Shown here: positions 26,676 through 36,529 of the stretch, in pieces
How the letters are laid out: each line of letters opens with the position of its first letter
How positions within the stretch are numbered: position 1 is the first letter of the stretch
Source: Saccharothrix sp. S26
GTDB lineage: Bacteria; Actinomycetota; Actinomycetes; Mycobacteriales; Pseudonocardiaceae
Assembly (NCBI RefSeq): GCF_021390395.1
Contig: NZ_JAJUWT010000009.1
Location: 1-64,000 of the forward strand
Length of the DNA stretch: 64,000 nt
Reading direction: 5' to 3'
Notes under the pieces: generated by a model
The model's input: the letters and a program-made list of their open reading frames with translations, nothing else
Told to the model about the DNA's origin: nothing
Databases searched by the model: none
Position numbers and translations under genes: made by a program

Positions 26676-27626
26676 TCAGCCGTACCGTTCGACGAGTGCC
26701 TTGCCGATCGAGGCCAGTTGGATTCGCACGCCCGGAGGGCCGGTCACCTCGATCCACTCGACCAACCCCGCGAGCTCGCCGGCGAGCGCGTACTCGTTGT
26801 AGCCGCGAATCACGACCTCGACGCGGCCGTCGGTGGTGACACCTCCCACCTTCAGCCGGTCGCCGAGCACCATCCGGAGCCGGGCCATCCCGTCGGGTGC
26901 GCAGGTCGCCTGGATCTCCAGGGGCGTCCGCCTGCGGTCGACCTCGTCGGTGATCTCGCGCCAGCTCGCGGCGAGGTCGAAGTCGTCGGGTCGGTGCACG
27001 GGATCGCCGGTCGGGTCGGCGGACGACACGCGGTCGATCCGGAAGGTCCGCCGGCCGGCCTCGGTGGTGCAGACGAGGTACCACCACGGGCCTTTGGCGA
27101 CGATGCCCAGCGGGTGGACGGTTCGCTCGGTTCCGGCGCCGGTGCCGTCCACGTAGCCGAGCCGCACCCGGACGCCGCGGATCACCGCGTCCTGGAGCTC
27201 GTCGAGGAAGCGGGGCGGCGGCCGGCGCTCGACCCGGCTCGACCCCCACCGTTGCGGGTCCAGCACCAACGACGACGCTGCCGCCTCGGCCTGCACCCGG
27301 AAGGGCTCCGGCAGGGCGCGGACGAGCTTGCGCAGCGCTGCTTTCGCGGCCGGCGTCGCAGCCGAAGCCGGGCCGGCGACCAGGAACAGGGCGCGGGCCT
27401 CACCCGCGGTCAAGCCGGACAGGTCGGTGCGGGCGCCGCCCACGAGGCGCCAGCCACCGCCCCGGCCTTGTCTGGAGTACACCGGCACCCCGGCCATGGC
27501 CAGGGCGTCGAAGTCGCGGCGGGCGGTGCGCTCGGACACTTCCAGCTCCCGGGCGACGTCCGCTGCCGTCAGCTGCTCGCGCTGTTGCAGCAGCAGGAGG
27601 ATGGCCATCAGCCGGTCGGCTCGCAC
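26676..27626 (-). CDS. WYL-domain transcriptional regulator
   Basis: A 316-residue regulator starting GTG. A DeoR-like winged helix opens it (RLMAILLLLQQREQLTAADV, then ARELEVSERTARRDFDAL). The central WYL domain (about 140-205) reads RVRLGYVDG, HPLGIVAKGPWWYLVCTTE and RTFRIDRVSSA, with the family W-Y-L as WWYLV. A WCX-like C-terminal domain completes it. WYL regulators bind nucleic acid or small ligands. It is divergent from an epoxide-hydrolase-like gene across about 120 bases with a perfect inverted repeat, so it likely controls both. Confidence 0.9.
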   Translation of the reverse strand: MRADRLMAILLLLQQREQLTAADVARELEVSERTARRDFDALAMAGVPVYSRQGRGGGWRLVGGARTDLSGLTAGEARALFLVAGPASAATPAAKAALRKLVRALPEPFRVQAEAAASSLVLDPQRWGSSRVERRPPPRFLDELQDAVIRGVRVRLGYVDGTGAGTERTVHPLGIVAKGPWWYLVCTTEAGRRTFRIDRVSSADPTGDPVHRPDDFDLAASWREITDEVDRRRTPLEIQATCAPDGMARLRMVLGDRLKVGGVTTDGRVEVVIRGYNEYALAGELAGLVEWIEVTGPPGVRIQLASIGKALVERYG

Positions 27627-27646
27627 ACCGGCAACACTCCCACAGC

Positions 27647-27671
27647 AAACCGGTCACGGGGTGACCGGTTT
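27647..27671. promoter_or_regulatory. perfect palindromic operator
   Basis: AAACCGGTCAC (27647-27657), GGG, then GTGACCGGTTT (27661-27671): an 11-base perfect inverted repeat with a three-base spacer. It lies 21 bases upstream of the WYL regulator start and 79 bases upstream of the hydrolase start, placed to govern both. Confidence 0.65.
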
Positions 27672-27749
27672 CGGTCGGCACGATGGCGACATGACCGCAT
27701 CGGCCGTCGACTGCTTCGACGCCGACGCCCCCACGACAGAGGAAGTGCG

Positions 27750-28700
27750 ATGTTCGATCCGACCGACTTTCCCGACCCCACCTTCGTCTCCGTCAACGGT
27801 GTGGAGCTCGAGGTCTTCGAAGCGGGCCGTGAGAACGCGGGAAAGCCCATCGTGCTCTGCCACGGCTGGCCGGAGCACGCCTTTTCCTGGCGTCACCAGG
27901 TGCCGGCCCTGGCCGCGGCGGGCTACCACGTCATCGTCCCGAACCAGCGGGGCTACGGCAACTCGTCCCGTCCGACCGCAGTGACGGACTACGACATCGG
28001 ACACCTCACGGGTGACCTCATCGCACTCCTCGACCACTACGGCTACGAGGACGCCACCTTCGTCGGCCACGACTGGGGCGCGTTCGTCGTCTGGGGCCTG
28101 ACCCTGCTGCACCCGAACCGGGTGAACGGCGTGGTGGCGCTGAGCGTGCCTTACCAAGAACGCGGAGAGGTGCCCTGGATCGAGTCCATGGAGGCCGTGC
28201 TCGGCCCCGACTTCTACTTCGTCCACTTCAACCGGCAGCCGGGCGTCGCGGACGCCGTGCTCGACGAGCACGCGGCCCGGTTCCTGCGCAACCTGTTCCG
28301 GAAGGACGAAACGCCGAAACCGCCTCAGCCGGGTATGGCGATGATCGAGCTCGCCAAAGCGGAGACACCCCTCGGCGAGCCCGTCATGAGCGACGGTGAA
28401 CTGGCCGTCTTCGTCTCCGCCTTCGCGTCGACGGGCTTCACGGGCAGCATCAACTGGTACCGCAACCTCGACCGCAACTGGCACCTGCTGGCCGACGTGG
28501 ACCCGGTCATCCGACAGCCCGCGCTCATGATCTACGGCGAGCGTGACGCGGTCCTGAGGTCTGCGCGGCTGGCGGAGTTCGTGCCCGAGGTGGAAGTGGT
28601 CAGCCTGGACTGCGGGCACTGGATCCAGCAGGAGAAGCCGGACGAGACGAACCAGGTGATCCTGAGGTGGCTGGACCAGCGGGATGGGACGATCAATTAG
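27750..28700 (+). CDS. epoxide-hydrolase-like alpha/beta hydrolase
   Basis: A 316-residue hydrolase. The ATG at 27750 has GAGGAAG upstream. Motifs are the oxyanion HGWPEH (about 46), the nucleophile elbow VGHDWGAF with Asp as nucleophile, typical of soluble epoxide hydrolases and haloalkane dehalogenases, and the late catalytic His in LDCGHWIQQEKP. A lid Tyr region (FTGSINWYRNLDRNW) supports epoxide hydrolase over dehalogenase. The sequence just upstream is antisense to the WYL regulator and not coding. It is likely controlled by that regulator. Confidence 0.9.
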   Translation: MFDPTDFPDPTFVSVNGVELEVFEAGRENAGKPIVLCHGWPEHAFSWRHQVPALAAAGYHVIVPNQRGYGNSSRPTAVTDYDIGHLTGDLIALLDHYGYEDATFVGHDWGAFVVWGLTLLHPNRVNGVVALSVPYQERGEVPWIESMEAVLGPDFYFVHFNRQPGVADAVLDEHAARFLRNLFRKDETPKPPQPGMAMIELAKAETPLGEPVMSDGELAVFVSAFASTGFTGSINWYRNLDRNWHLLADVDPVIRQPALMIYGERDAVLRSARLAEFVPEVEVVSLDCGHWIQQEKPDETNQVILRWLDQRDGTIN

Positions 28701-28917
28701 CCGGAGGACGATCACTTCCGATGCAGCGATTTCGACCATTCATTCCCGGCGGCGCGGGCTATATGCGGAGTGTTACCGGTCGCCCGCCGGGGACCGGCGG
28801 CATCGCTCAATGGGGTGCGGTGAGCTGAGCGGACGACCTATGGCCGGCCTGCCGACCACCGGCGAGGTACGGTGTTCGGGTCAGCATTTTCCTTTACCCA
28901 CAGGAAGATGATCGCCC
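28701..28917. other. intergenic region before small secreted proteins
   Basis: A 217-base gap that is locally less GC-rich around 28880-28915. No terminator hairpin or gene is evident. Confidence 0.35.
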
Positions 28918-29313
28918 ATGCGTTTTCCTGTCTGGCTCGGCGCGCTGATCATGACGTCGGCGTTGGCGGCCGGTCCGACCGCGGCGTCCGCCGAGCCCAT
29001 TCACGGCCCGGGTGACGCACCGGGTGCGGAACGGGATGATTCCTGCTTCGCGAAACTGAAGGACTGGGCTCCCCTCTACCGGAGTTGGTCGGACCCCGAG
29101 GCCGGCAAGTGGGGCTACTACGAGGCGGAAAAACGACCTCCGAGAACTTGCCTGCCCAAGTGGACCTCCTATCATGAAGGTCGGTTCGAATACGACGCAT
29201 CGACCCAGAGGTTCACCGCGGTGGGGCGGCCCTGGGGACAGTACGAATATTTCTACACCATGCGCACGTTCAACAACCTGGTCTTCAACTCCCGCGACGT
29301 GGAGTGGCAGTAG
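28918..29313 (+). CDS. small secreted protein, 131 aa, unknown
   Basis: An exported protein I do not recognise. The signal peptide (FPVWLGALIMTSALAAG) has a cleavage site near ASAEP. The mature part is rich in aromatic residues (WAPLYRSWSDP, KWGYYEAEK, GQYEYFYTMRTFNN) and has two Cys (DDSCF and RTCLP), which could form one disulfide. Codon third positions are noticeably less GC-rich than in neighbours, a mark of acquired DNA. Another small secreted protein follows, and a P450/peptide cluster lies 800 bases downstream. Confidence 0.65.
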   Translation: MRFPVWLGALIMTSALAAGPTAASAEPIHGPGDAPGAERDDSCFAKLKDWAPLYRSWSDPEAGKWGYYEAEKRPPRTCLPKWTSYHEGRFEYDASTQRFTAVGRPWGQYEYFYTMRTFNNLVFNSRDVEWQ

Positions 29314-29404
29314 CCCTGCCGGCATCGACGATCACCCGAACCAGGAGCGGATCTTGAGCGGATCGGGTGTTCGGAATGAGTTTCCGGGCCACCAGGAGAT
29401 GTCA

Positions 29405-29806
29405 ATGACAAAGAGGATCGCCGAAATCCTTCCCATTGCCATTGCGGCATTGTTGATCACAATGTTCACCGTGGCCGCGGAGGCTTCGGCGGCCGTTTCG
29501 ATGCACGCATCGACGGTCGCGCACAACGCCACCGTGAACCAGCAGGAACCCCCGTGCCCGTGGAAAGCGGGCTGCCACCCGCCGGATGGCGAACTGTGCC
29601 CCCCGGGCAGCAGCAACGCCGGCAACGTGGGGAAGCAGCGCCGCGTCACACTGGAAAACGTGAAAGTCGCCCAAGGTCAGTGGCGGCTCATGTGGTGGGA
29701 CAACTGCAGGGATTTCAAGGACAACTTCTGCCACAACATCTGCTTCAACTACCCGGAGTTCGCGGGAAGTTACTGCAAGAAATGCCTGGGAGGCGGGCCG
29801 TTCTGA
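29405..29806 (+). CDS. small secreted Cys-rich protein, 133 aa, unknown
   Basis: An exported protein starting at the second ATG (29405), which stands seven bases after CCAGGAG; the ATG at 29399 is too close to that site. The signal peptide contains ILPIAIAALLITMFTVAAEA. The mature protein has eight Cys (PPCPWKAGC, GELCPPG, DNC, NFCHNIC, SYCKKC), enough for four disulfides, and ends LGGGPF. Such small Cys-rich secreted proteins may be inhibitors or antimicrobial proteins, but no family is recognised. Codon use is less GC-biased, like its upstream neighbour. Confidence 0.65.
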   Translation: MTKRIAEILPIAIAALLITMFTVAAEASAAVSMHASTVAHNATVNQQEPPCPWKAGCHPPDGELCPPGSSNAGNVGKQRRVTLENVKVAQGQWRLMWWDNCRDFKDNFCHNICFNYPEFAGSYCKKCLGGGPF

Positions 29807-29825
29807 ACTTCCCACCGCACTCCCC

Positions 29826-29965
29826 GGGCTTGTTGCCCAACTCCGGGCTGCCCGACATCACGAGCACCGACGAGGCCGAGCTGGTCGCCGCGCGTCGACG
29901 GATCGCCGCACTCGAGGCCGCGGTGATCGCCCCGGAGGGCCGGCCCATCCGACTCGCCCGTGCGT
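29826..29965 (+). pseudogene. transposase OrfA-like fragment
   Basis: The frame reads LPDITSTDEAELVAARRRIA followed by ALEAAVIAPEGRP. This resembles the C-terminal coiled coil of IS3-type transposase OrfA proteins (…DEAELAAARRRIAELE…). No HTH domain remains upstream. It marks an old insertion between the secreted proteins and the P450 cluster. Confidence 0.4.
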
Positions 29966-30103
29966 GGCCGGAACATCCGAGTCCGACAGGCATTCCCTCA
30001 CCACACGGCCCACCGGGGGGCCGGCCATTCGGTGGCTTGCGCTGACGGCACGCGCGGCGCGAAGCTGCTGTGGTCCGCGAAAACCGGCCGGGTGGGGCGA
30101 CGA

Positions 30104-31215
30104 GTGGACGAGCTGGAGACCTTAGACGATCTTCGTGCCCGTCACGGGCCATCTTCCGACGCAGACCGGGTGTGCTCTACGTGGGCGAACCGGCCGAGGC
30201 GAAAGCCGTTCTCGCCAACACCGGGTCGCGTTACCGCGAGCATTCGGACTTCTTCCAGACCAGCAAGGGAATCCTCGGGCCGCGCTCGACGCAGCAGGAG
30301 ATCGGCCGGACGGCGCGGAACCTGCTGCGGGATCACTGGGTCGCCCAGGCAGACCGACTGGCGGCGACCGTCGAACGGGAGATCGGGCCTCACAGCCGGT
30401 GGCCTGACGCGGGGAACCTGTTGCTGTACAGGTGCTTCCGCGACGTGCTGGCGCCGGGAGGCGAGTTGCGCCGGCTCGTCGACCAGGTGGTCCGGCACGC
30501 GGTGCGGGCCGGTGCCCGGGATCGGCGGTCGGTGCTGTCGCGGGCCGTGCTGCGGGGCAGGGTCCGTCGCGCCCTGGTCGCCGAGTTGTCCCGCCGGCGC
30601 ACGCGGGGCGTGCGGACGCCGGGCGACTTGCTGGACGTCCTCGCCACCGCGGCACCGGACGCTTCCTCGCGCGTGGCGCTGGTGCGCTTGGCGGAGGTGT
30701 TCCTGTCGTTCCTGTTCGCCGTCACGGGGTCGACGGGGTTCCTGCTGGGCTGGTCGGTGTACCTGCTGGGCACCCGGCCCCAGGCGGGCGGCGACCCGGC
30801 CGGTGTGGTGCGCGAGGCGCTGCGCCTCTGGCCGGTCGCCTGGAACTTCGGCCGCACCCCGGTCGAACCCCACCGACTGGCCGGAACCGAGGTCACGGCG
30901 TCCGACGAGGTGGTCGTGTGCAGCTACCTCGTGCACCGGGACAGCCGGTTCTGGCCCGACCCCGACGAGTTCCTCCCGCAGCGGTGGTCGGCCGGCATGC
31001 CGCGGGGCGGTGCGGAGGCGTTCATCCCGTTCGGTTGGGGAGCCCACACCTGCGTGGCGGCGGGTTTCGCCGTCCAACTGGTCGAAGACGTCCTGCGGCT
31101 GCTGCCGCCGGCCGAGCGGTGGCGGGTCGAGGCCCACGGGCACCGGCCGCACGTCGCGGCCGCCCTCGCGCCACCGGATTTCACCCTGCGCACGAACGGT
31201 GCCCGCGCACGTTGA
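30104..31215 (+). CDS. cytochrome P450 of a RiPP cluster, N-terminal frame disrupted
   Basis: A heme monooxygenase of about 370 residues. The main frame (from about 30172 to 31215) contains LYVGEPAEAKAVLANTG, I-helix LFAVTGSTGFLLG, K-helix EALRLWPVAWN and the heme loop FIPFGWGAHTC, with the Cys codon at 31051. Upstream of 30172 this frame is Arg-rich and not P450-like, while the neighbouring frame reads DELETLDDLRARHGP and SSDADRV, a good P450 N-terminus. Joining them needs a loss of two bases or gain of one near 30170-30174. This is a real mutation or a sequencing error. The gene ends 11 bases before the precursor peptide. In atropopeptide and related clusters such P450s form C-C, C-N or C-O crosslinks between aromatic side chains. 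Confidence 0.75.
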
Positions 31216-31226
31216 GGGAGGTGAAC

Positions 31227-31316
31227 ATGGCCAAGATCATCCACGCCGCACTGGTGGCGCTTAACATCCGCAAGAGCGACTCCCAGTACCGCTGGTACTT
31301 GTACCACCACATCTGA
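31227..31316 (+). CDS. 29-residue RiPP precursor peptide with aromatic core
   Basis: GGGAGG stands a few bases before the ATG at 31227. The encoded peptide opens MAKIIHAALVALNIRKS and ends YRWYLYHHI, with TGA at 31314. The first part is a short amphipathic leader; the last nine residues hold one Trp, three Tyr and two His, the residues that P450s crosslink in tryptorubin/atropopeptides, biarylitides and cittilins. It is sandwiched between two P450 genes with no other maturation enzyme nearby. All of this is visible; crosslinking of the product is inferred from the family. Confidence 0.8.
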   Translation: MAKIIHAALVALNIRKSDSQYRWYLYHHI

Positions 31317-31324
31317 CCGGTGCG

Positions 31325-31354
31325 GGTGGGGAGCACAGCCACACGCTCCCCACC
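31325..31354. terminator. attenuator hairpin between precursor and second P450
   Basis: GGTGGGGAGC (31325-31334) pairs perfectly with GCTCCCCACC (31345-31354) across a ten-base loop. Partial terminators here are common in RiPP operons and allow more precursor than enzyme mRNA. Confidence 0.55.
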
Positions 31355-31371
31355 TTCGGGGGAGGCACACG

Positions 31372-32619
31372 ATGACCCAACGCGACGACCCGGACCTGCT
31401 GGCGGACCTGCGTGCCCCCAACGCCGAGCACGACGGTGTCTTCTGGCACGGCGACCAGCGGCTGATGGTGTTCGACGCCGACGCGGCGAGCCGGGCCAAC
31501 GCCGAGAACTTCGCCGACCTGACGCTCCCCGACCGGTTCGTCGACCGGGTCCGCGGCCGTCGCAGCCCGGCCGTGTCGTGGCGGCAGGTGCGCTCGCTGT
31601 GGCTGTCCCGGATGCGGGTGCTCAGCGAGGAGAACCGGCTGCGCGAGCTGACCGACCGCATGGCCGCGATCCTGGACCACCGCCGCGACCAGCACGTGGA
31701 CTTCGCGTGGCTGGCGCACGAGGTGACGTTCCGCGCCCTGGTGCCCGTGGTGCTCGACGGACTGTCCACTTCGGATCAGGCGTGGCTCAGCCGCGACGCG
31801 ATCGCGAAGCTCACCCGGCTGGACGCGGGACCGGGTGGTCAGACCCGCCGGCAGAGGTGGGAGTCCGTCGTCGCCCAGTTGCACGTCGGTCGGGTCGTGC
31901 GCGCGGAGCTCCGCCGTCGGACGCGTCACGGGCGGACCCGCATCGACCTCACGCAGCCCATCGTGGACCGGTTGCTGCCCTCCCTCGGCCCCGACCGCGC
32001 GGTGGAGGCGGTCACGACGGTCCTCACCGCGATCGCCGGGCCACCAGGCGCGGTCGCCGGCTGCCTGATGTACGAACTGGCGAAACGGCCCGAGTGGGCG
32101 GCCACGCTGACGGAGGAGTTCGCGTCCGGTCCCGCCGAGCTGCTGCACCGGACCGGCACCAGGTCCGCGCCGACAGCGCACCAGTTCGTGAAGGAGGTGC
32201 TGCGGATGTGGTCGGCACCGCTGCTGATGACCCGCAGCGCGCGGGTCCCCCTGACGATCCGCGGCCACCGGCTCGCCGTGGGCCGGCACTTCCTGGTGAG
32301 CCCTTACCTGGTCAACCACGATGAGCGCCACTGGTCCGACCCGGACGTGTTCGACCCGAACCGGTGGTCGGCCGGAGCGGCCCACCGTCCGCCCGGAGGG
32401 AACCACTACGTGCCGTTCGGCTGGGCACCCACCGCGTGCATCGGCGCCGGGCTGGGGAGCATCCAACTGGTCCTGCTGACGTACCTGCTGTGCACCCGAT
32501 TCCGGCTGGAGCTGCGCGCACCCGATGCCGCTCGGGTATCCCTGGGCGCGGTGCCCCGGCCCCTGGACTTCGACGGGTGGGTTCGCCGTCGGGAACCCGC
32601 TCGGACCAAAGCCGCGTAG
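31372..32619 (+). CDS. second cytochrome P450 of the RiPP cluster, atypical motifs
   Basis: A 415-residue P450 opening MTQRDDPDLLADLRAP. The K-helix KEVLRMWSAPLL and the PERF-like FDPNRWSAG are present. The heme loop reads YVPFGWAPTACIG (Cys at residue 356), where the usual FGxGxxxC has Ala in place of the second Gly and Thr in place of the usual His/Arg. The I-helix reads TAIAGPPGAVAGC and lacks the conserved acid-Thr pair that normally guides oxygen activation. Such divergence is seen in P450s that crosslink peptides rather than hydroxylate. It ends before a bidirectional terminator. Role inferred: crosslinking of the precursor core. Confidence 0.88.
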   Translation: MTQRDDPDLLADLRAPNAEHDGVFWHGDQRLMVFDADAASRANAENFADLTLPDRFVDRVRGRRSPAVSWRQVRSLWLSRMRVLSEENRLRELTDRMAAILDHRRDQHVDFAWLAHEVTFRALVPVVLDGLSTSDQAWLSRDAIAKLTRLDAGPGGQTRRQRWESVVAQLHVGRVVRAELRRRTRHGRTRIDLTQPIVDRLLPSLGPDRAVEAVTTVLTAIAGPPGAVAGCLMYELAKRPEWAATLTEEFASGPAELLHRTGTRSAPTAHQFVKEVLRMWSAPLLMTRSARVPLTIRGHRLAVGRHFLVSPYLVNHDERHWSDPDVFDPNRWSAGAAHRPPGGNHYVPFGWAPTACIGAGLGSIQLVLLTYLLCTRFRLELRAPDAARVSLGAVPRPLDFDGWVRRREPARTKAA

Positions 32620-32649
32620 GACGTTGACGACTTGCGTGAGTCCGAGGCG

Positions 32650-32686
32650 GGCGCCCCTCACCCCCGGTCGTGGGGTGTGGGGCGCC
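32650..32686. terminator. bidirectional terminator
   Basis: Arms 32650-32664 and 32672-32686 form a 15-base stem with one mismatch and a seven-base loop, between the second P450 and the convergent GH62 gene. Confidence 0.7.
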
Positions 32687-32716
32687 GGCTCGATCGGATG
32701 AGGCTGCGTCAGGCGC

Positions 32717-34144
32717 TCAGCGTCGCAGCGTCAGCAGGCCCGGTCGGTAGGGCAGCAGGCCGTAGTCACCACCGGAGTTGGGGCTGCGGCCCTGGTAGAG
32801 CAGTTGCAGGTTGCAGGGGTCGATGGTCTTGGTCTGGTCGGGGTTGGCGCGGATCAGGTCGCCGTGGCTGATGTCGTTGGTCCAGGTCGCACCGCTGTTG
32901 GCCTTGCCCGCGAACGGGTTGCTCTCGGTGGCGGCCTGCGGGGTCCAGTTGCCGCTGAGGCTGCTGGAGGTGAACGAGCGGAAGTAACGGCCGTTCGCGC
33001 CGATCGCCTCGACGATCATCAGGTACTGGTTCTGACCCTGCACCTTGTACACCTCGACCGCCTCGAACAGGTTGTTCGTGGTGTCGCTCATGATCGTGGT
33101 GTAGGACGAGCCGAAACTGCCCGGGAAGTTCCCGATCGGCATCACCTGGCGGTAGATCTTGCCGTTGTCACCGGCGAAGAACAGGTACATGTTCTGACCG
33201 TCACCGATGATCGTCTGATCGATCGGACCCGTGCCCGAACCGCTGATGCTCGCCGTCGAGAGCACCTGCGGCGACGACCAGCCGTTGGGGTTGGTCGGGT
33301 CGGTCGACGTCCGGTAGCTGAACGCCGTCCCACCCCACTGGTACGCCAGCACCCAGATGTTCTTCGGCGCGAAGTAGAACAACGTGGGCGCGACGGTGCC
33401 GCTGTTCATGGCCTGCTGCGGCGCAGACGCCATCTCCGACCAGTTGCTGAACAGCCCGAAGTTCATCGAACCCCAGCGCGTGCCCGTGTCGTGGGTCGTG
33501 GCGTAGACCAGGTGCTTGCCGTTGTAGGGCACGTAGGTGAAGTCCTTCAACGACACCCACCCGGACCTCGGCTGGGCCAACGCACCGGTCGAAGTCCAGC
33601 GGTAGGTCGACGGGAGCGAGCAGCCACCGCCCGGCTGGGTCGTCGTCGTGGTCGTGCTCGTGGACGTCGTGGAGGTCGTCGAGGTCGTGGTTGTCGTGGT
33701 CGTGTCACCGGTGCACGCCACGCCGTTCAGGGCGAAGCTCGTCGGGACCGGGTTGCTGCCCGTCCACGACCCGTTGAAACCGAACGACACCGAACCGCCG
33801 GTCGGGACCAAGCCGTTGTAGCTCACGTTCTTCGCCGTCACCGCCGAACCGCTCTGCGTCAACGACGTGCTCCACGACTGCGTCACCGCCTGCCCCGCGT
33901 CGAACGACCACGTCAGCGTCCACCCGTTCAGCGGATCACCCAGGTTGGTGATCGACACGTTCGCGCTGAACCCACCCTGCCATTGCGACCCCACGGCGTA
34001 GTTCACCGAACAGCCCGCGGCCGCGGCACCGGCGGGCACCGCCACGAGAACCGTCGCCGAAGCGAGCAGTGCGGCGCTCACCGCGGCGACACCGACCGTG
34101 CTCGATTTGAATCTGGTCATGAAGTTGCGTCGTTGCACTGACAT
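32717..34144 (-). CDS. secreted GH62 alpha-L-arabinofuranosidase with N-terminal CBM2
   Basis: A 475-residue exported hemicellulase. The start at 34144 has a GGAGAGAAG ribosome site. Signal peptide to about residue 43; CBM2 (cellulose/xylan binding) from [20 protein letters not shown] to about 145 with conserved Trp; a Thr-rich linker; then a GH62 domain (from [18 protein letters not shown] to the end) with FNEARG-type features FVYAPKNI-like [34 protein letters not shown] and [19 protein letters not shown]62 removes arabinose side chains from arabinoxylan. The upstream region has two LacI-type operator copies related to those before the sugar dehydrogenase. Confidence 0.9.
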
Positions 34145-34400
34145 GACTTCTCTCCTCTGCATGTGGGCGTTGCGCGACCTGCCGTCCGTGCGCGTGACCT
34201 TCGGCAACGGCGGGAATCGAGCCGTGCGTCGCCATGGCTTGCAGTGTCGCACCACGATGTTCACGCTCACAAGACTCCGCACGGTACGAACGTCCGATTC
34301 GCCGGTGCGAAAGAATTGCGACGCGAATCCCATGGCTTCATGCAGGTAATTCGATAGTATTCGACCACAGGCTTTCGAACGGCGGCGCTAAAGTTATCGC
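34145..34400. promoter_or_regulatory. GH62 control region with two LacI-like sites
   Basis: GTTCACGCTCAC at 34259-34270 and GTTATCGCTCAC at 34393-34404 differ at two positions, and the second differs by one base from the reverse complement of the 1241-1252 site. The second is enclosed by a GCTAAAG/CTTTAGC inverted repeat (34387-34413). The stretch around 34345-34375 is AT-richer, as a promoter would be. A common LacI-type repressor for both loci is inferred. Confidence 0.5.
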
Positions 34401-34760
34401 TCACATCTTTAGCTCGTGCCCGGGCACCAAGGGCACAACGGAGGCGTCGATGTGAATGGGCGCGTGGCCGGTGGTGTCGAGGACGTGGACCCGGTAGTCG
34501 CCGCCGAGGTTGAGGCTGCTCGGTGTCGTGGTCGGGGTTGTAGAGGCAGTCCAGCAACCGCGGCTTTGGAGCGCTGATCCACTTGGCGCCGCGCCGGAAG
34601 CAGTCCACGAGCAGGGGGCCGGTAGGCTCGAAGTAGCGCGACCTCCAGGCCGCGAAAGGGCGGCGGTGGTCCACCGGTTACGGGCGGACGACTCGCACGG
34701 CCCTGGGGACGTCAGCAGCTCGGCGAAGGCGTCCAGCTCGTCGGCCGCGCTCGACGTGCT
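34401..34760 (-). pseudogene. amidinotransferase relic
   Basis: Minus-strand frames read ELDAFAELLTS, then VDHRRPFA, WRSRYFEPTGPLLVDCFRRG and AKWISAPKPRLLDCLYNPD, then in another frame NLGGDYRVHVLDTTGHAPIH. These are StrB/VioH-type amidinotransferase motifs (L-arginine to inosamine-phosphate or glycine, seen in aminoglycoside-type pathways). The middle of the protein is missing between PFA and WRSRYFEP, and frames change, so it is a remnant. Confidence 0.55.
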
Positions 34761-35196
34761 CCGCCGGGAACCCCGACCCGCCTGCCCGGGCCGGGTGCTC
34801 ACCGAACCGCTCCAGGCCGTCGGGGGTGCGCAGCAGGGCGTCCCGGGTGGCGTCGTCGCCGGTGCCGGTCGACCTGCCGACGCCCAGGTCGATGCGGCCG
34901 GGGTGCAGCGCCTCCAGCGTGCGGAACTGCTCGGCCACGTGCAGCGGCGCGTGGTTGGGCAGCATGATCCCGCCGGAGCCGACGCGCAGGCGCGTGGTGC
35001 GGTCCGCGATGTGGCCGATGACGACCTCCGGCGCGGCGACGGCCATGTTGCGCACGCCGTGGTGCTCGGCGAGCCAGTAGCGGGTCAGGCCGATCTCGTC
35101 GGCCAGCCGGGCCAGGTCCACCGTGTGCCGCAGGGCCTGCGACGGCGGGGTCTCCTCGGACACGGGTCCTTGGTCGACCAGGGAGAGAGCGACCAC
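34678..35196 (-). pseudogene. truncated luciferase-like monooxygenase
   Basis: The first 135 residues are a typical F420/FMN luciferase-like fold start: SLVDQGPVSEETPPSQAL, LARLADEIGLTRYWLAEHHG, RLRVGSGGIMLPNHAPLHVA and GRIDLGVGRSTGTGDDA. The full enzyme should be about 330 residues. Here the frame runs into sequence belonging to the amidinotransferase relic and stops at 34678, so a deletion fused the two. GTG start at 35196, one base after the previous gene's stop. Confidence 0.65.
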
Positions 35197-35197
35197 G

Positions 35198-36529
35198 TCA
35201 CACCCCCACCGCGGTACGGCGGCGGACGGCCGGCAAGGGCAGCCCGTGGTGCTCGCGCAGGGTGCGGCCGCGGTATTCGGTGCGGAAGATGCCCTTGCGC
35301 TGCAGGATCGGCACCACGTGGTCGACGAAGGCGGGCAGCCCGTCGAACGTCACGTCGGGCATGATCGTGAAGCCGTCGACCGCGCCCGCGCGGAACCACG
35401 CTTCGATCCGGTCGGCCACCTGCTCGGGCGACCCGACGCCGAGGACGTGCCCGCTGCCGCCGCCGCGGGCGATGATGTCGCGCACGGTCAGGCCGGACTT
35501 CGCCAGTGCGACGGCGTGCCCGCCGTGCCCGGACGGCACGGGCAGCGCCTCGCGCAACGACTCGGGCACGGGCCGGTCCAGCTCCAGCGCGTCGGGTGGC
35601 AGGCCGAGCCGGGCCGCGACCCACCGGACCTGGTCGGTCACGTTCGCCAGCTCGTCGAGCTCGCGGCGGCGGCGCAGCGCTTCCTCCTCCGTGCCGCCGA
35701 GGGTGGTGATGAAGCCGGGCAGGAACAGGAACGAGTCCGGCGCCCGGCCGAACCGCACGGCCCGCGCGCGGATCTCGGCCAGGTCGGCGGCGGCGGCGTC
35801 CACGTCGACCACGGCGGTGAACATGGCTTCCGCGGTGCGCGCGGTGAGCGTCCAGACGTCGTCGGACACACCGGCGTGGTAGATCACCGGGTGGCCCTGC
35901 TCCGACGGCGGCAACGTGATCGGGCCGCGCACGTCGAAGTGCCGTCCGTGGTGGTCGATGGGCGCGATGGCGTCCATGTCGGCGTAACGACCCGCCTCGA
36001 CGTCGAGCACGAGCCCGTCGTCGCCCCAGCTGTCCCACAGCCGGCGCACGACCAGGACGAACTCCTCGACGCGCTCGTAGCGGGTCCGGCCGTCCGGCTC
36101 CTCGGCCACGAAGTTGGCCGCGACCCGCGGGCCGGAGGTGGTGACGGCGTTCCACCCCGCGCGACCGTGGCTGATCAGGTCCAGCGCGCGGAACCGGCGG
36201 GCGATGTTGTACGGCTCGTTGAACGTGGTGGAAGCGGTGCCCACCAGGCCGACCCGCTCGGTGACCACGGCCATCGCGCTCAGGATCAGCGTGGGCTCCA
36301 GGCCGTTGACGATCGGGTAGTCGGTCAGGTCGGCGTGCAGGCCGGGCACGTCGGCGAGGAAGATCGCGTCGAGCAGGCCGCGCTCGGCGACCCGCGCCAC
36401 CTCCAGGTAGCCCTCGACGCGGGCGAACGAGACGGGGTCCGCGCCCGGCCACCGCCATGCACCGGGGTGGTTGCCCGCCCCCACCGGGTGCACGTTCAGG
36501 TGCAGTTCCCGGACGTCCGGACGACTCAC
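35198..36529 (-). CDS. FMN-dependent monooxygenase, NtaA/SnaA/DszA family
   Basis: A 443-residue flavin-dependent monooxygenase starting GTG behind GGAGGAG. Family motifs: GAWRWPGADPVSFARVEGYL near the start, LDAIFLADVPGLHADLTDYP, TASTTFNEPYNIARRF, the flavin-site HGRAGWNAVTT and VIYHAGVSDDVW. NtaA/DszA-type enzymes use reduced FMN to cleave C-N or C-S bonds (nitrilotriacetate, dibenzothiophene sulfone, sulfonates). With the truncated luciferase-like gene next in line, this could have been a desulfurisation operon. Substrate unproven. Confidence 0.88.
   Translation of the reverse strand: MSRPDVRELHLNVHPVGAGNHPGAWRWPGADPVSFARVEGYLEVARVAERGLLDAIFLADVPGLHADLTDYPIVNGLEPTLILSAMAVVTERVGLVGTASTTFNEPYNIARRFRALDLISHGRAGWNAVTTSGPRVAANFVAEEPDGRTRYERVEEFVLVVRRLWDSWGDDGLVLDVEAGRYADMDAIAPIDHHGRHFDVRGPITLPPSEQGHPVIYHAGVSDDVWTLTARTAEAMFTAVVDVDAAAADLAEIRARAVRFGRAPDSFLFLPGFITTLGGTEEEALRRRRELDELANVTDQVRWVAARLGLPPDALELDRPVPESLREALPVPSGHGGHAVALAKSGLTVRDIIARGGGSGHVLGVGSPEQVADRIEAWFRAGAVDGFTIMPDVTFDGLPAFVDHVVPILQRKGIFRTEYRGRTLREHHGLPLPAVRRRTAVGV

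Follow-up and report, generated by a model that had tools for sequence, protein, structure and literature searches.

The locus at positions 30104–32619 of the window (the whole 64,000-nucleotide stretch of Saccharothrix sp. S26 DNA analysed here) is very likely a minimal RiPP cluster of the hyalucidin A family, in which a short precursor peptide is oxidised by two P450s. Judged from its sequence, the peptide is very probably cross-linked into a rigid structure by these two enzymes.

Organization of the three-gene locus

The locus comprises P450-1, the peptide gene and P450-2, which lie in that order on the + strand. The peptide gene (31227–31316) starts with an ATG at 31227 and ends with a stop codon at 31314–31316, giving 29 codons, and a ribosome-binding site, GGGAGGTGA, is located immediately upstream at 31216–31224 (+). 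A preliminary description of this DNA had placed a 29-codon peptide gene with a strong ribosome site between two P450 genes, and this holds, as both flanking genes match Pfam PF00067. The same description called the two P450s divergent, which is true of their sequences (29.6% identity over the aligned part) and not of their orientation, since both genes are on the + strand. In 22 of the 23 other loci described below, GGAGGTGA lies directly 5′ of the start codon of the peptide gene, the exception being locus G1333b. No promoter was detected in a sigma-70 scan, and the single terminator-like site compares with 0.8 in shuffled sequences.

On the 5′ side of the cluster, an ORF at 29252–29806 (+) encodes a probable secreted, cysteine-rich small protein with no Pfam match. 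The gene adjoining the cluster at 32717–34333 (−) encodes a glycoside hydrolase of family 62 with a cellulose-binding domain, by its domains an ordinary secreted enzyme. A luciferase-like monooxygenase ORF at 34678–35196 (−), 2 kb 3′ of P450-2, covers only profile positions 12–110 of 314 and is apparently truncated or frame-broken.

The precursor peptide and its conserved tail

The 29-residue peptide matches the NCBIfam model NF053510.1 (hereafter NF053510; "hyalucidin A family RiPP precursor") with 72.7 bits, the cut-off being 35, and the match spans profile positions 1–29 of 29. Its C-terminal tail, WYLYHHI (31293–31313, +), recurs with little change, in that all 24 precursors collected, the window included (19 of them distinct, 28–30 residues in length), end in WYxYHH[IL]. 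Specifically, R22, W23, Y24, Y26, H27 and H28 are invariant at 18 loci, where position 25 is occupied by L, V, W or Y and position 29 by I or L. At the six loci from another genus, the residues up to the Trp differ (YFW, QFW, IHW) and WYLYHHI is kept. Conservation of the aromatic, His-rich tail, the lack of which the preliminary description had named as speaking against it, was thus checked and found in every precursor.

Unlike the tail, the leader and the pre-core residues vary across loci. Because the tail is conserved and the residues preceding it are variable, we would take WYxYHH[IL] as the putative core, possibly with one to three of the preceding residues. The tail codons are almost fixed (TAC, CAC) at the 18 loci, so that synonymous change adds little evidence in this part of the gene. 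The exact letters of the tail are absent from the open-access papers searched, most subscription journals lying outside that search.

GC-rich DNA contains many small ORFs by chance, and 89 ORFs of at least 25 aa overlap positions 27000–36000; the peptide could on this ground be taken as a chance reading frame within a two-P450 operon and not as a RiPP precursor. This reading, to which we give practically no credence, is contradicted by the NF053510 match, the conserved tail and the co-occurrence of the peptide with P450-2.

Distribution and co-occurrence of the trio

Among 390 genomes of the taxonomic family of the window, the NF053510 profile identifies the peptide in 18, the window's own genome included, which belong to 4 of 46 genera. 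The 8 matches found in an earlier sample of 60 relatives, again including its own genome, are all among these 18. In the class sample (1 of 394) and the phylum sample (1 of 296), its own genome is the sole match to NF053510. Additionally, 5 of 295 genomes of another genus match the profile, at six loci, and 0 of 3 genomes of a third genus do so. Genome G1333 carries two hyalucidin-type loci (L053 and L055) with different pre-core residues, the precursors ending in VIHWYLYHHI and EYFWYLYHHI.

The order P450-1, peptide, P450-2 is kept in all 17 relatives from the taxonomic family, although P450-2 of G656 runs off its contig, and in all six loci of the other genus, whose P450s are 41–48% identical to those of the window. 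The trio recurs in 23 other loci from 22 genomes, and hence in 24 of 24 loci with the window, all of which were recruited through the family model of the peptide itself. Searching with P450-2 provides the independent test: at E ≤ 1e-40, it retrieves from the 390 family genomes the same 18 genomes as the peptide model. The preliminary description had named P450 pairs lacking such a peptide as the observation that would speak against it; at this threshold, every genome with a P450-2 relative carries the peptide. The relatives named in the P450-2 search, Saccharothrix sp. NRRL B-16348, S. tamanrassetensis, S. algeriensis and Actinosynnema sp. ALI-1.44, are loci already among those counted and are not added again. 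That the peptide, its tail and its position between the P450s recur in 24 of 24 loci is more than expected by chance.

Beyond the P450s, no ORF cluster is common to more than two of the 18 loci in a neighbour test that took ORFs of at least 80 aa with high GC3 within ~5 kb, a rough gene call which missed P450-1 of G656 and G510 and which covered the 18 loci of the window's taxonomic family. In line with the earlier statement that no other maturation gene is present, no further gene is common across the 18 loci. Since the gene order is conserved and the neighbours are unshared, the trio constitutes the conserved unit. Plasmid or phage carriage shows no sign in the collections searched: 202 records of the plasmid collection match P450-2, all at <60% identity and with less than 80% of the query covered, and the phage collection yields no matches.

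The two P450s belong to separate groups

P450-2 (31372–32619, +; 415 aa), which carries the heme motif FGWAPTAC and the sequence EVLR, matches PF00067 with 84.1 bits, and P450-1, when read in the frame that opens at 30070, matches it with 70.3 bits. Aligned to four relatives, P450-1 is 82–85% identical and P450-2 is 83–87% identical. In addition, P450-1 shares 38.6% identity with the aligned part of PDB chain 9ulw, annotated "Cytochrome P450". In a tree of 47 rows, from which the P450-2 of G656 was left out as incomplete at the contig end, P450-1 (24 rows) and P450-2 (23 rows) form separate groups, each with 100/100 support. Regular expressions missed the heme or the ExxR motif in 16 of the 47 rows, and the 11 rows that were re-examined carry both in variant form (e.g. 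FGHGPHACTG). The predicted structure of P450-1, which was built on a 5-row alignment and has a pLDDT of 34.5, carries no substrate-binding argument.

The bodies of both P450s are under purifying selection. Compared with seven relatives, dN/dS is 0.18–0.39 for the window P450-1 (from GVLYV on) and 0.27–0.48 for the window P450-2, and the values for P450-1 among the relatives themselves (0.25–0.53, five pairs) are comparable with those of the window copy.

A frame break in the 5′ part of P450-1

In the window, the codons at 30104–30148 (+), which form the 5′ end of P450-1, are in a different frame from the rest of the gene (from ~30151), so that the frame is broken at ~30149–30151. The gene body (30151–31215, +), with the heme motif FGWGAHTC and the sequence EALR, follows the frame of the ORF opening at 30070. 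The start given in the preliminary description, a GTG at 30104, is out of frame with the gene body, and translation from it gives no Pfam match. The sequence VDELETLDDLRARHG at 30104–30148 matches the in-frame start of P450-1 in L008–L011, G017 and G011, and in the four aligned relatives, L008–L011, the region is uninterrupted and in a single frame (4/4). One other P450-1, that of G561, is broken near residue 75; including the window, 2 of 24 are thus broken, and the other 22 match in one frame.

The break may be real, or it may equally be an assembly error. Because the body of P450-1 keeps a low dN/dS, the break is either very recent or an error in this 54-contig draft. The luciferase-like gene at 34678–35196 also appears to be cut short, which makes sequence errors or local decay in this region more likely.

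A decayed cluster, with P450-1 as a recent pseudogene and either P450-2 acting alone or no product being made, would be compatible with membership in the hyalucidin family, and we regard such decay as a serious though somewhat doubtful possibility. It is suggested by a frame that is broken here and intact in all four aligned relatives, and by the second broken P450-1 among the 24 loci. The low dN/dS of the gene body, however, means that any decay would be very recent, and an alternative in-frame start exists, the GTG at 30070, but its use replaces the conserved N-terminus. Moreover, a sequencing error in the draft genome is at least an equally good explanation, for which there is a precedent in the lau cluster, where P450 fragments are described as a sequencing artefact in PMC11450843. 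If the break is real, the cluster in Saccharothrix sp. S26 may be silent or altered.

An intergenic hairpin between the precursor gene and P450-2

Between the stop codon of the precursor gene and the start of P450-2, a hairpin is located at 31324–31355 (+), with an 11-pair stem that includes one G-T pair and a 10-base loop. In the window, this stretch folds with −28.4 kcal/mol (z −2.12), and 7 of 200 shuffles fold equally well. When 18 loci are aligned, pairing holds in 96.4% of cells, compared with 93.6% in column shuffles, versions of the hairpin slid by 1 to 3 columns pair in at most 65.3% of cells, and 3 of 11 pairs are changed on both sides. The count of further pair types in this alignment is not above that in shuffles. 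Seven of the nine double-sided changed cells represent a single exchange of C-G for U-A, mostly among close relatives, and the covariation is therefore modest. A stem of at least 7 pairs, with G-T allowed, is present in 23 of 24 loci, the exception being G1333a with 6 pairs. The number of single-base shuffles, out of 200, that fold equally well is 118 for G1333a, 19 for G1119, 17 for G031 and 8 for G019; the window has 5 such shuffles, and each of the remaining 19 loci has 0 to 2. The hairpin probably serves to keep the precursor mRNA abundant relative to that of P450-2.

Comparison with known P450-modified RiPPs

Hyalucidin A is, according to the title of the paper by Yin et al. (Angew. Chem. 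2026, cited in PMC13417212), a RiPP with a benzofuranoindoline structure that arises through tandem P450 catalysis. The locus resembles this family in two respects: the window precursor scores above the NF053510 cut-off along all 29 profile positions, and two P450s stand beside the precursor in the window and in the 23 other loci, a criterion taken from that title. The preliminary description had proposed a P450-modified RiPP with a possibly undescribed product. A two-P450 RiPP cluster with a conserved tail is indeed what we find, but "undescribed" does not stand at the level of the family, for which NF053510 exists and, by that title, biosynthesis of a RiPP by tandem P450s has been published.

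The layout had earlier been likened to that of atropopeptides and biarylitides. The likeness extends to P450s beside a peptide with an aromatic tail; it fails in the leader motifs of the former and in the precursor length of the latter. As in atropopeptides, a short leader–core precursor with an aromatic C-terminal core lies beside a P450 (PMC11450843). A genuine atropopeptide cluster of the tryptorubin type with an extra P450 would resemble the lau (laurentirubin) pathway, a two-P450 atropopeptide system in which coexpression suggests that LauB2 acts after LauB1 and adds a further bridge, the second P450 being 28% identical to TryB (these points as given in PMC11450843). The existence of such a cluster with a later-acting second P450 lends the comparison some force, as do the KS at residues 16–17 of the precursor in the window, close to where PMC11450843 puts the leader motif (17–20), and the letters RWYLYH, which fit xWxxYx. 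The atropopeptide core pattern, with a conserved W2, is usually xWxxWx and in some cases xWxxYx. However, none of the six KSLK-type leader motif variants given in PMC11450843 and no W..W core occurs in the 24 precursors (0/24 for each), and the window precursor has an NCBIfam family of its own, NF053510. Also unlike atropopeptides, the precursors have one conserved Trp and a His-His near the end, and two P450s are present in 24 of 24 loci. The distinction is drawn by features of the precursor and the number of P450s, and not by P450 sequences, and we consider an atropopeptide identity highly improbable.

In biarylitides, a P450 joins aromatic and His side chains, and residues of both kinds are found in the tail described here, yet the biarylitide precursor has five residues (PMC13417212, in its account of this class) compared with 28–30 in 24 of 24 loci. 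Neither P450 of the window reaches any NCBIfam cut-off. The best model for both is that of the aminopyruvatide P450 ApyO (NF050147), with 68.1 and 64.9 bits where the cut-off is 525, which sets them apart from ApyO; this enzyme is described in PMC13192836 as joining the two Tyr residues of a YLY motif, a sequence that is also part of the window tail.

Proposed biosynthesis and implications

For the hyalucidin A-family cluster, we propose the following course. In the 29-residue precursor made by the ribosome, the first ~20 residues would be the leader, and the core would be WYLYHHI, possibly extended by one to three preceding residues. Guided by the leader, the precursor would bind to the enzymes, and the two P450s of separate clades would act on the core one after the other, linking Trp and Tyr side chains by oxidation, as the title on hyalucidin A suggests. 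Because no further gene is common between the loci, the leader would presumably be removed by host proteases encoded outside the cluster. The hairpin after the precursor gene would leave more precursor message than P450-2 message.

A bolder extension, which we think unlikely, is that the strictly conserved His-His takes part in a further cross-link, giving a scaffold beyond the published benzofuranoindoline from a core YRWYxYHHI, and that the hairpin is a dedicated regulator of the precursor-to-enzyme ratio.

For the hyalucidin family, a young group of RiPPs, the analysis provides a map of 24 loci, of which 18 are in the taxonomic family of the window and 6 in another genus. The near-fixed core, together with the varying leaders and pre-core residues, provides a natural series for assigning the role of each P450, and as a bare three-gene unit without shared neighbours, the cluster should be easy to transfer into a laboratory host.
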